Below are positions 14,951-20,046 of a stretch of 20,440 bases of DNA, piece by piece. Made by a program: the position numbers and the translations under genes. The number at the start of each line of letters is the position of its first letter. Position 1 is the first letter of the stretch. The notes below the pieces were generated by a model, which ran no database searches, had not been told where the DNA came from, and saw only the letters and a list, made by a program, of their open reading frames with translations. The stretch comes from a virus: positions 1-20,440 of the IMG/VR virus record IMGVR_UViG_3300025626_000170; one strand, given 5' to 3'.

Positions 14951-15001
14951 GAAAATAAACGCTTAAATACTTTTTTATGTCGTTTATTTGTGGTATATTA
15001 G
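14951..15001 (+). promoter_or_regulatory. TATATTAG-class promoter module 1
   Basis: GAAAATAAA (14951-14959), TTTTTTATGTC (14971-14981), then TTTGTGG and TATATTAG (14994-15001), followed by a TATAATT-like tail. The same parts recur with near-constant spacing at 15400, 19629 and 19959. An inverted repeat AAATAAACG/CGTTTATTT (14953-14961, 14981-14989) overlaps it. TATATTAG resembles the Bacteroidota -7 element TAnnTTTG with one difference. Confidence 0.7.
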
Positions 15002-16187: not shown

Positions 16188-16273
16188 GCTACTGTGGTGG
16201 AATTGGTAGACACGTTGGACTTAAAATCCAATGGGCAGTAATGTCCGTGCCGGTTCGACCCCGGCCAGTAGTA
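16188..16273 (+). tRNA. tRNA-Leu (anticodon TAA)
   Basis: Acceptor GCTACTG pairs with CAGTAGT (16266-16272). The anticodon arm is TTGGA-CTTAAAA-TCCAA, so it reads UUA. A long variable arm and T-arm GCCGG-TTCGACC-CCGGC follow. No CCA is encoded. The 100 bases before it, after the sigma gene, contain a TATAATATAAG stretch that could be a promoter. Confidence 0.95.
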
Positions 16274-16280
16274 CAAGTAT

Positions 16281-16354
16281 GGACCAGTAGCACAACTGGA
16301 TAGTGCAGCACCCTTCTAAGGTGCCGGTTATAGGTTCGAATCCTATCTGGTTCA
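16281..16354 (+). tRNA. tRNA-Arg (anticodon TCT)
   Basis: Acceptor GGACCAG pairs with CTGGTTC (16347-16353). The anticodon arm is GCACC-CTTCTAA-GGTGC, so it reads AGA. The T-loop is TTCGAAT. It begins 7 bases after tRNA-Leu. Confidence 0.94.
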
Positions 16355-16367
16355 CCGATATCTAAAC

Positions 16368-16439
16368 GCTCCGTTCGTCTAACGGTTAGGACATTAGGTT
16401 TTCATCCTAAAAATAGGAGTTCGATTCTCCTACGGAGTA
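16368..16439 (+). tRNA. tRNA-Glu (anticodon TTC)
   Basis: Acceptor GCTCCGT pairs with ACGGAGT (16432-16438). The anticodon arm is TTAGG-TTTTCAT-CCTAA, so it reads GAA. The T-arm is AGGAG-TTCGATT-CTCCT. Confidence 0.95.
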
Positions 16440-16448
16440 CAACAGATC

Positions 16449-16525
16449 GATCTCTTAGCTCAGTTGGCTAGAGCATCTCACTTTTAATGAGAGGGTCCAG
16501 GGTTCGAGTCCCTGAGGGATCACCA
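16449..16525 (+). tRNA. tRNA-Lys (anticodon TTT), CCA encoded
   Basis: Acceptor GATCTCT pairs with AGGGATC (16515-16521) with one T-G pair. The anticodon arm is TCTCA-CTTTTAA-TGAGA, so it reads AAA. The T-arm is CAGGG-TTCGAGT-CCCTG. Discriminator A is followed by a genomic CCA (16523-16525), unlike most of its neighbours. Confidence 0.95.
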
Positions 16526-16528
16526 TAT

Positions 16529-16605
16529 AGTCAAGTATCTCCTCAAGCTTATACCTTGTAGAAAGAGTAATTGGTTACATGAGAGTTCAAATCTCTCCTT
16601 GACTA
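16529..16605 (+). ncRNA. Aberrant tRNA-like gene without a D-arm
   Basis: Acceptor AGTCAAG (16529-16535) pairs perfectly with CTTGACT (16598-16604), and a perfect T-arm GAGAG-TTCAAAT-CTCTC precedes it. Between them no canonical D-arm can be drawn. Only eight bases separate the acceptor from a hairpin CAAG-CTTATAC-CTTG (16544-16558), whose 7-base loop would place TAT as anticodon with T33 and A37 correct. A second hairpin GTAA-TTGG-TTAC (16567-16578) sits where a long variable arm would be. It starts 3 bases after the CCA of tRNA-Lys. It is either a degenerate tRNA or a tRNA-like RNA of other use; the isoacceptor assignment (Ile, AUA) is tentative. Confidence 0.55.
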
Positions 16606-16633
16606 CCTGTGGAAGAAATTTAATTATATTAAT

Positions 16634-16642
16634 GATATATAG
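16634..16642 (+). promoter_or_regulatory. Late-type promoter box GATATATAG
   Basis: GATATATAG lies 25 bases before the ATG of the 47-aa gene at 16668 and matches the GATATATAA class except at its last base. Confidence 0.4.
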
Positions 16643-16667
16643 TTTTCAATTAAAAAAACAATAAGTA

Positions 16668-16811
16668 ATGAATTCTGAACAATCAAACAATGGAAACACT
16701 CAGATAAACCATGAGAGAGCAAGTCTCAATAGTAGAGTTTCTAGGTTTATGATGCTTGGTAAATCCAAGAAAGTACAATGGGACGGTAAAAGAAGATGCC
16801 GCACCATTTAA
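16668..16811 (+). CDS. Hypothetical small basic protein (47 aa) within the tRNA cluster
   Basis: ATG 16668 to TAA 16809-16811 encodes 47 residues, starting MNSEQSNNGNTQINHERASL and ending VQWDGKRRCRTI. The N-terminal half is Asn/Gln/Ser-rich and probably unstructured; the C-terminal half is basic (RFMMLGKSKKVQWDGKRR). It has an A-rich leader and an upstream promoter-like box, and it fits exactly between two RNA genes, which supports it being real. No family is recognised. Confidence 0.5.
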   Translation: MNSEQSNNGNTQINHERASLNSRVSRFMMLGKSKKVQWDGKRRCRTI

Positions 16812-16817
16812 AAGGTC

Positions 16818-16891
16818 GCCTTTGTAGCTCAGCTGGCTAGAGCAGCTGATTTGTAATCAGCAGGTCGTGGGTTCGAGTCCCTCCAAAGGCT
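16818..16891 (+). tRNA. tRNA-Thr (anticodon TGT)
   Basis: Acceptor GCCTTTG pairs with CAAAGGC (16884-16890). The anticodon arm is GCTGA-TTTGTAA-TCAGC, so it reads ACA. The T-stem GTGGG/CCCTC contains one T-T mismatch. D-arm AGCTCAGCTGGCTAGAGC is canonical. Confidence 0.94.
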
Positions 16892-16908
16892 CTAATAATA
16901 TAGTATAA

Positions 16909-16981
16909 GCGAAAGTAGCTCAGTTGGTAGAGCGAAAGCCTTCCAAGCTTTAGGTCGCCAGTTCGAACCTGGTCTTTCGCT
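16909..16981 (+). tRNA. tRNA-Gly (anticodon TCC)
   Basis: Acceptor GCGAAAG pairs with CTTTCGC (16974-16980). The anticodon arm is AAAGC-CTTCCAA-GCTTT, so it reads GGA. The T-arm is CCAGT-TCGAACC-TGG type with a standard TTCGAAC loop. No CCA is encoded. Confidence 0.95.
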
Positions 16982-17215
16982 CACAATCGAGAAATAAAGA
17001 CAACTCGGGACAAGCATAAGAGTCCTTAAACAATGCAGGCCACTACCTCGCGAGCCTACAATTTCATAAAACGTGGGGTCTGGGATTCTAAAGGACATAA
17101 CAAACCTACCCAGTAGTTTGACTATTTTTTATGTGGTAAGACACTAATGCGTTTTATTGAAGAGAAAGAAAAACCGTTAAAATCCAGTCTAACAAGTCTT
17201 AGTTAGGCGCAACAT
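16982..17215 (+). other. Unexplained 234-base gap between tRNA-Gly and tRNA-Asp, probably structured
   Basis: No convincing gene lies here. The first 130 bases look richer in G+C than the surroundings and hold several possible pairings: GTCCTT/AAGGAC (17022-17027, 17091-17096), AGGC/GCCT (17037-17040, 17054-17057) around the palindrome CTCGCGAG (17047-17054), CCTAC/GTGGG, and CTGGG with CCCAG (17108-17112). A weak terminator-like hairpin AGTAGT-TTG-ACTATT (17112-17126) runs into Ts. A 19-codon frame (17147-17206, MRFIEEKEKPLKSSLTSLS) follows but is too short to support. It may encode a small RNA. Confidence 0.35.
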
Positions 17216-17289
17216 AGTCTGGTAGCTCAGTTGGTTAGAGTGTCGCCCTGTCACGGCGAAGGTCGCGGGTTCGAGTCCCGTCCAGACTG
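17216..17289 (+). tRNA. tRNA-Asp (anticodon GTC)
   Basis: Acceptor AGTCTGG pairs with CCAGACT (17282-17288). The anticodon arm is TCGCC-CTGTCAC-GGCGA, so it reads GAC/GAU. The T-arm is GCGGG-TTCGAGT-CCCGT. It is the last tRNA of the cluster. Confidence 0.95.
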
Positions 17290-17303
17290 CAATTCTTAAA
17301 ATA

Positions 17304-19008: not shown

Positions 19009-19620
19009 ATGAAAAACTGTTATACAAGAGAACAGATCGAAGAAGTAATGAAAGCCAAAGGCTACAAATACTTCACAGGTGGAGATTACGATGTTAACAT
19101 TATAGGCATCAGAAACTCAGAGACAAAAAACAAAGTAACAAATAAATTTGATGACTGTCTAACTCTATCTTATAAAATAGATGGTGAATGGCAGTTTCAT
19201 TGCTTTCCATGTACTACCGACCCTGGAACACATTGGGTAGAGAATGTACTAAATAAAAATGGAGTAGCGATACTTAAACCGGGTCAATATAGAGGGTCTC
19301 ATAAATTAAGATTACATGCTGGTAAATATTTAGCTTTAGGGCAACAAAAACCAGTTAAAGTATATCGAGACAGTAATAGAGATGACAAATATGATTTGCT
19401 AGAAGAAAATGTTCATGAAGGTATTTATGGAATTAATATTCATAGAGCTACAAGTAGAGCAGGTGGAAAATCTACACAAGTAGATAAATGGTCTGCAGGT
19501 TGTCAAGTTATTGCTGATAATGATGATTGGCATGAATTTTTAGATGTCTGCCAAATCGCTAGAGAACACTGGGGCAACTCTTTTACTTACACTTTGATTG
19601 ATTCAAGCGATATTTCTTAA
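19009..19620 (+). CDS. Probable endolysin with YkuD-like (L,D-transpeptidase/carboxypeptidase) motif
   Basis: The 203-residue protein has no signal peptide. Residues 138-168 contain GIYGINIHRA (H145) and WSAGCQVI (S162, G164, C165), matching the H...[ST]xGC catalytic pattern of YkuD-type cysteine enzymes that act on peptidoglycan stem peptides. Upstream are YFTGGDYDVNIIGIRN, FPCTTDPGTHW and GQYRGSHKLRLHAG, the kind of beta-rich segments seen around that fold. As the third gene after a holin-like protein it is the best candidate for the phage lysin. The assignment rests on motif and context; the exact bond cleaved is unknown. Confidence 0.68.
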   Translation: MKNCYTREQIEEVMKAKGYKYFTGGDYDVNIIGIRNSETKNKVTNKFDDCLTLSYKIDGEWQFHCFPCTTDPGTHWVENVLNKNGVAILKPGQYRGSHKLRLHAGKYLALGQQKPVKVYRDSNRDDKYDLLEENVHEGIYGINIHRATSRAGGKSTQVDKWSAGCQVIADNDDWHEFLDVCQIAREHWGNSFTYTLIDSSDIS

Positions 19621-19628
19621 ACTTTTTT

Positions 19629-19678
19629 GAAAATAAATCACCAGGATTTTTTTATATCAATTATTTTTGGTATATTAG
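19629..19678 (+). promoter_or_regulatory. TATATTAG-class promoter module 3, before the structured RNA
   Basis: GAAAATAAA (19629-19637), TTTTTTATATC (19648-19658), TTTTTGG and TATATTAG (19671-19678) are in the same order and spacing as modules 1 and 4. It starts 9 bases after the lysin stop codon. The AAATC/GATTT pairing followed by seven Ts (19635-19654) may also weakly terminate the upstream operon. Confidence 0.7.
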
Positions 19679-19684
19679 TATTGT

Positions 19685-19940
19685 AATTGTGGCTGAGGGC
19701 TTGATCACTCTCTCGAACATTATGGGCCTGATGGCAACGCGACCACCCCTAATGACAGTTATATCGGACAGACGCCAGGTGAAAAAGTAAATTTATGGCA
19801 ATGTGGGAACTCAGTTCGCTGAGGTCGGTCAATCATAGGGAATACCGTTTAAAACAAGAATAGAGCCTGGTACCTACGCAGCTTAAGAACGTGGGAATAT
19901 GGTTAATTGAAGGTTCGACTCCTTCTCTGTCCGCAAATAG
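19685..19940 (+). ncRNA. Unrecognised structured RNA with a tRNA-like 3' domain
   Basis: No protein is supported here, yet a promoter module precedes it and a strong terminator follows it. The 3' part reads as a tRNA-like domain. Acceptor GGACAGA (19766-19772) pairs perfectly with TCTGTCC (19926-19932), and a T-arm GAAGG-TTCGACT-CCTTC (19909-19925) sits exactly where expected. A D-stem-like CCAGG/CCTGG pair (19775-19779, 19866-19870) encloses about 86 bases with a CTCAG-TTCG-CTGAG hairpin. An anticodon-like arm CCTACG/CGTGGG (19873-19878, 19890-19895) has an 11-base loop. The 5' leader folds into its own hairpin (CATTA-T-GGG with CCC-C-TAATG, 19718-19726 and 19746-19754). It matches no RNA family I know. 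Confidence 0.65.
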
Positions 19941-19984
19941 AAATCCGGAAACTAATTTGAAAATAATTAGCTCCGGATTTTTTT
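19941..19984 (+). terminator. Strong intrinsic terminator after the structured RNA
   Basis: AAATCCGGA (19941-19949) pairs with TCCGGATTT (19972-19980), with an inner CTAATT/AATTAG stem and a T-run to 19984. The GAAAATAA box of the next promoter module lies in the loop and its T-run is the promoter's TTTTTTATGTC, so terminator and promoter share sequence. Confidence 0.88.
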
Positions 19985-20009
19985 ATGTCAAATATTTGTG
20001 GTATATTAG
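19959..20009 (+). promoter_or_regulatory. TATATTAG-class promoter module 4, before the T5orf172 gene
   Basis: GAAAATAA (19959-19966), TTTTTTATGTC (19979-19989), TTTGTGG and TATATTAG (20002-20009), followed by TGGTATACTA. A small GGAG-GTTA-CTCC hairpin lies in the leader before the 20047 ATG. Confidence 0.7.
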
Positions 20010-20046
20010 TGGTATACTAATGGAGGTTACTCCGCAAAAATAAATA

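Follow-up and report, generated by a model that had tools for sequence, protein, structure and literature searches.

A conserved RNA gene with a tRNA-like 3' end

Comparison of related sequences indicates that positions 19681-19933 of the window, a virus record of 20,440 bases, hold the gene for a non-coding RNA, about 255 nt long, that is both structured and conserved; the RNA, its promoter module, and its terminator lie on the + strand. The RNA has two domains, a three-way junction on the 5' side and a tRNA-like part on the 3' side, where a large core unlike that of tRNAs is closed by a tRNA top half. A sequence-only reading had proposed a structured RNA gene here, and every element that it listed was found at its place in the window. 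The 3' domain is closed by a perfect 7-bp acceptor, formed by GGACAGA (19766-19772) and by TCTGTCC followed by a discriminator-like G73 (19926-19933). The T-arm, GAAGG-TTCGACT-CCTTC (19909-19925), is stacked directly on it, and CCA is not encoded, as in most tRNAs of the window phage. The core (19773-19908) contains a CCAGG/CCTGG stem (19775-19779 with 19866-19870), and the 86 nt between its arms, which include the hairpin CTCAG-UUCG-CTGAG (19810-19823), agree with the earlier description of a giant D-arm with about 86 extra bases and a UUCG hairpin. A CGGT...ACCG hairpin (19826-19847) follows, and then an anticodon-like arm (19873-19895). The proposed cloverleaf held only for the tRNA-like top half; the 86-nt D-loop insert and the anticodon-like loop are not tRNA features. 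The anticodon-like stem itself, CCTACG/CGTGGG (19873-19878 with 19890-19895), is present, but its loop has 11 nt instead of 7.

At two places in the window, the RNA and 16529-16605, a perfect T-stem that carries a TTCRA loop is stacked on a perfect 7-bp acceptor; 300 dinucleotide shuffles of the window sequence gave no such combination. The G+C content of the RNA region is 46%, compared with 34% for the window. However, the fold energy of the single sequence was ordinary (z +1.6 for 19685-19960 and z -1.1 for 19766-19933), and therefore a comparison among homologues was needed.

Terminase and tail genes of T4 type lie in the window, which also has an array of tRNA genes (16188-17290). In named records, the best relatives of its terminase were found in uncultured large phages and in phages of Tenacibaculum, Chryseobacterium, and Flavobacterium; another was in a phage recorded for Sphingomonas. 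From these relatives, a host among the Bacteroidota is likely for the window phage, which is T4-like. Two other stretches of the tRNA array were recorded. The segment 16529-16605 is a borderline tRNA (31.3 bits with Rfam, no ARAGORN call) at the place where the homologous contig L064 has tRNA-Asn(gtt), and is perhaps a remodelled or decaying tRNA. Between tRNA-Gly and tRNA-Asp, positions 16997-17217 form a second conserved non-coding stretch of about 220 nt, whose counterpart in the relative L246 (78.5% identity) sits between tRNA-Asn and tRNA-Thr. It has a possible covarying pseudoknot (a GGAC/GTCC hairpin, with its loop pairing downstream) and gave no credible Rfam match.

Homologues of the RNA

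To find homologues, IMG/VR was scanned for exact patterns taken from the 5' domain, the core, and the 3' end, and a protein-anchored scan was added. Besides the window, six IMG/VR loci were homologous: L064 (same contig as L072), L068, L257 (same contig as L071), L253, L249, and L252. All six were recovered by the 5'-domain scan and by each core scan, and none further, so the invariance that the homologues have in common is not merely an effect of the search words. The seven sequences form three groups, the window clade, L253, and L249/L252. The last group represents another phage lineage, and the proteins that it shares with the window clade are 32-83% identical (amidase 38%). No neighbouring gene was constant beside the RNA across the homologues. 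In this second lineage (L278-L282; G051 and G052), genes for DnaK, FKBP, SHMT, thymidylate synthase, and a ClpP-like protein, named by reading translations, lie near the RNA.

The core plus T-arm pattern had no match in GTDB, and the RNA had none in plasmids or E. coli genomes. Over Rfam, ARAGORN, GTDB patterns, plasmids, E. coli, and named phages, only short tRNA-like 3' ends matched. A covariance model run on the records of relatives reached no more than about 25 bits outside the known homologues, and these weak matches are apparently tRNA genes and an element of the crAss-like phage cr111_1 described below. Several candidates were rejected. An 18-mer of the 5' domain gave 10 matches in unrelated bacteria of GTDB; in the two of these that were searched with the model, L264 and L267, it found a short 19-nt match in one and nothing in the other. 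Matches of a core 18-mer to L287 and L288 were not found by the model. The pattern GCAGCTTAA...GGTTCRANTCC retrieved 31 contigs, none homologous to the RNA by eye, though several have another tRNA-like RNA in common. Such a recurrent RNA was seen in the phage tRNA arrays of L006, L008, L010, L024, L025, and L031; a ACTTTAAG...CTTAAAGT stem comes first in it, then a T-arm and CCGTAAT, and it did not appear among the Rfam matches obtained.

Covariation supports the stems of both domains

In an alignment of the seven sequences, 97.9% of the cells of the proposed structure were paired. Ten pairs were changed on both sides, whereas the shuffled mean was 5.3 and none of 500 shuffles reached 10. The covariation score was 0.164, compared with 0.091 for the shuffled alignments (0/500), and controls in which the arms were slid gave at most 2 pairs changed on both sides. 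RNAalifold, given no structure, found 9 such pairs.

The support was located in three helices of the 5' domain (P1, hairpin 1, and hairpin 2), in the acceptor (C-G to U-A), and in the T-stem (A-U to G-C, twice). P1 (19684-19690 with 19755-19761) closes the three-way junction at 19684-19761; its arms, TAATTGT/ACAGTTA in the window, are TAGTTCT/AGAACTA and TAGTTGT/ACAACTA in homologues, all paired. Hairpin 1, GAGGG-CTTGATCA-CTCTC (19695-19712), has the paired variants GAGAG/CTCTC in L068 and GAGTA/TACTC in L249; MAFFT misplaced its 3' arm in L249 and L252, and read by eye it pairs there too. Hairpin 2, CATTATGGG...CCCCTAATG (19718-19754), in which three pairs changed on both sides around an invariant apical region, CCTGATGGCAACGCGACCA, varies to CATTAAGGG/CCCTTAATG in L068, CATTAGAGG/CCTCTAATG in L064, and TATTAGG/CCTAATA in L249 and L252. 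The acceptor of L249 and L252 is GGATAGA/TCTATCC, a compensatory change that leaves 100% of the acceptor cells paired. The T-stem changes from GAAGG/CCTTC to GGGGG/CCCCC in three homologues, which gives two compensatory pairs around an unchanged T-loop. Thus, the covariation that had been proposed as a check on the acceptor and the T-arm was observed in both.

The CCAGG/CCTGG, UUCG, CGGT/ACCG, and anticodon-like stems were identical wherever present among the seven sequences, and because the CCAGG/CCTGG and anticodon-like stems never vary, covariation cannot probe these two. Folding predicted the anticodon-like stem with a pairing probability of 0.95 or more in all seven sequences. The CCAGG/CCTGG stem was predicted at 0.41-0.89, and a near-equal alternative, GCCA/TGGC, competes with it in six of the seven; a change in L249 breaks this competitor. 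The anticodon-like loop varies and has 10 nt in L252.

The core is nearly frozen

The window and L249 differ at only 3 of the 136 alignment columns of the core, at 0 of 23 positions in the apical part of hairpin 2, and at 0 of 7 in the T-loop. In contrast, they differ at 14 of 31 positions in hairpin 1 and the junctions, 5 of 14 in P1, and 4 of 10 in the T-stem. The core is therefore more conserved than the 32-83% identical proteins of these phages, and the compensated drift in the stems beside static loops and core argues for a functional RNA and not a recent copy. The CGGT...ACCG hairpin is the 27 nt missing from L253, and is thus dispensable.

The region had been described as having no coding frame of note. 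A 22-codon ORF in the core (19795-19863; ATG GCA ATG TGG ... TAG) had been overlooked, but it is probably fortuitous on the pattern of its changes. The ORF is intact in all seven sequences, and the 27-nt deletion in L253 is in frame and leaves 13 codons. However, its substitutions are mostly non-synonymous (the ends read ...KQE, KQK, or KLK), and a deletion is in frame by accident one time in three; the ORF was rejected as a real gene. A reading of TAC GCA GCT TAA (19875-19886) as a tmRNA tag was also rejected, since its frame is not conserved (ACTAGG in L252, ACT TAA in the others).

The 5' domain and expression of the RNA

The sequence-only reading had described the first 80 nt or so as a leader that would be released if host RNase P cut at 19766. 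The segment is instead a conserved, covarying three-way junction, with compensatory changes in three helices and an invariant apical loop, and therefore belongs to the RNA. Cleavage at 19766 is possible, yet uncertain, because C(-1) (C19765) and G73 (G19933) are invariant and are predicted to pair (P about 0.9). If formed, this pair may prevent the RNA from having a normal 5' end of tRNA type. A likeness of the 5' domain to the 5' half of tRNA-Ser (GTGGCTGAGGGCTTGA) was dismissed as coincidental, because it is lost in L249 and L252. The loop of hairpin 1 (window 19700-19707) contains a palindrome in every homologue, each time a different one (TGATCA, GATC, GATATC); this could fit a kissing dimer, and chance could also account for it.

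A promoter-like module, TTTTTGGTATATTAGT (19664-19682), with the -10-like TATATT at 19671-19676, precedes the RNA. Exact copies of TTTNTGGTATATTAGT stand at 14987, 19664 (19664-19679), and 19995 in the window, and contigs of related phages as well as Chryseobacterium phage MA9V-1 also have the longer module. Since TATATT ends 7 nt upstream of P1, the transcript of the window clade probably begins with the 5' domain, and we infer a start at about 19682-19684, at the foot of P1. Downstream, a long hairpin followed by a T run (19939-19982) forms an intrinsic terminator (-16.8 kcal/mol, z -4.8, 0/200 shuffles). These signals strongly suggest that, in the window clade, the RNA has a promoter of its own and that its transcription stops at the terminator. 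However, in L249 and L252 the model start of the RNA and the stop codon of a 72-codon ORF overlap. Because the RNA lies directly 3' of this ORF, it would be either cut from a longer transcript or started inside the ORF, and the proposed independent transcription unit is thus not general.

Comparison with known RNA families

In keeping with the new class that the earlier reading had listed as one possibility, the RNA matched no known family. ARAGORN called neither a tRNA nor a tmRNA in it, no Rfam family scored above its gathering score, and none of the weaker matches was credible. Group I and group II introns and ribozymes were rejected, as none had an Rfam match at E up to 10 in window 19600-20040 or in L252 880-1220. 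Since no named family matches, the RNA is filed as a new family among the phage stable RNAs with tRNA-like parts.

The RNA resembles class II tRNAs (RF00005; Ser and Tyr) in the geometry of the acceptor and T-arm, the T-loop TTCGACT, and the CCA that is not encoded. However, it scores 15.5 bits with the tRNA model, against a cut-off of 29, and differs by the lack of a 7-nt anticodon loop, by the 86-nt insert in place of a normal D-arm, and by the extra 5' domain. The last 28-30 nt resemble tRNA-Tyr genes in the window and tRNA-Ser genes in L249, a likeness in sequence which suggests that a class II tRNA was the ancestor of the 3' end. In tmRNA (RF00023), too, acceptor and T-arm close a tRNA-like domain with a core that is not that of a tRNA, but the window RNA has about half to two thirds of the usual tmRNA length.

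Besides tRNAs, stable RNAs without a known function, such as T4 species 1 and 2, have long been described from phages. The nearest known kind is T4 species 1 RNA (rnaC, 139 nt; with rnaD), likewise encoded by a T4-like phage and a stable RNA on the T4 side. Like the window RNA, it carries a perfect T-arm of tRNA type at the 3' end (CCGGG-TTCGAAT-CCCGG). However, rnaC lies in a tRNA cluster, one long hairpin replaces its D-arm, and it lacks both a clear 7-bp acceptor and the 5' three-way junction of the window RNA. No sequence homology was detected, and covariance model R1 found no match in rnaC. RNAC and RNAD are reported to be late RNAs of unknown function (PMC9697503).

An unannotated 139-nt element of the crAss-like phage cr111_1 (L002 1393-1531) lies between tRNA-Ser and tRNA-Trp and folds better than shuffles (z -2.5). 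It has a perfect acceptor (GGGCAGA/TCTGCCC), the same T-arm GAAGG...CCTTC, and a large insert; its likeness to the window RNA is limited to the 3' 30 nt, and it has neither the 5' domain nor the core. Bacterial Y RNAs of the YrlA type are non-coding RNAs with a tRNA-like module (PMC7790460). The module is common to both, but that of the window RNA has its own acceptor and a free 3' end, and no Y RNA matched in Rfam at E 10 in the window or L252.

Possible functions of the RNA

The earlier reading had listed decoy, packaging, and regulatory roles as possibilities. We give about even odds to a two-domain RNA whose tRNA top half engages host tRNA enzymes, and whose frozen core and 5' loop are the binding site of a conserved partner. 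The top half would be read by host tRNA enzymes for 3'-end trimming, CCA addition, and possibly RNase P, EF-Tu, or a synthetase, which would provide both a matured, stable RNA and a docking handle. With the partner bound by the core and the 5' loop, the RNA would redirect or occupy a component of the host translation/tRNA system during infection. The acceptor combines G1-C72, A3-U70, and G73 with G2-C71, which is G2-U71 in two homologues; this combination occurs in tRNA-Ser and tRNA-Asp. A stronger version, in which the RNA is charged or handled as a tRNA and the 136-nt core and the 5' domain act on the ribosome/tRNA system by a tmRNA-like logic with unrelated parts, seems improbable.

Of the other explanations, a plain small RNA is a possible one, about half as probable as engagement of host tRNA enzymes. 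Here the tRNA-like end would be a module for 3' stability or maturation, and the core would regulate by base pairing or protein binding outside tRNA biology. A generic end module predicts what was observed, a top half that varies freely while paired and a frozen core, but it does not account for the exactly kept T-loop sequence and stacked geometry, and the 3' end would already have the protection of the terminator hairpin. That phages counter nucleases with tRNAs and tRNA mimicry is a well-established theme. A decoy against tRNA-cleaving defences of the host, for example anticodon nucleases, or an RNA that competes for a tRNA enzyme would fit this theme, as well as the tRNA-like top half with an invariant hairpin at the anticodon position; the tRNA-like domain of bacterial Y RNA has also been proposed to act as an inhibitor (PMC7790460). 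The loop of the hairpin at the anticodon position, however, has 11 nt (10 in L252) and varies, and for a bait a 130-nt frozen core plus a 5' domain are more than necessary, so that we regard a decoy as unlikely.

A reduced tmRNA-like RNA, with the tRNA-like domain and the internal ORF (22 codons, 13 in L253) as a tag, is very unlikely. The intact ORF and the in-frame deletion would agree with it, and the tmRNA model has a local match to 17 nt of the T-arm in L252, but this match covers the T-arm only and reaches 13.5 bits against a gathering score of 47. Moreover, the alanine identity pair G3-U70 of tmRNA is absent, with A3-U70 in all seven sequences; no D-loop motif GGNUUCGAC, ALAA-like tag end, or pseudoknot was found in the RNA, and the mostly non-synonymous changes do not suit a tag. 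Slightly less probable still is a tRNA gene that is interrupted by an intron or decaying, despite the likeness of the 3' end to tRNA-Tyr and tRNA-Ser genes: removal of the conserved part leaves no tRNA core, Rfam gave no intron match even at E 10, and strong conservation excludes decay. A fortuitous resemblance in an ordinary intergenic spacer would explain why the single sequence folds not clearly better than shuffles, but it has hardly any probability left, as covariation and conservation across lineages refute it for the acceptor, the T-arm, and the 5' domain.

The RNA thus represents a new family in which a covarying tRNA top half is combined with a second covarying domain and with a core more conserved than the phage proteins. 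This family gives a concrete handle on the stable RNAs of phages, in asking which tRNA-reading machine is engaged and what the binding partner of the core is.
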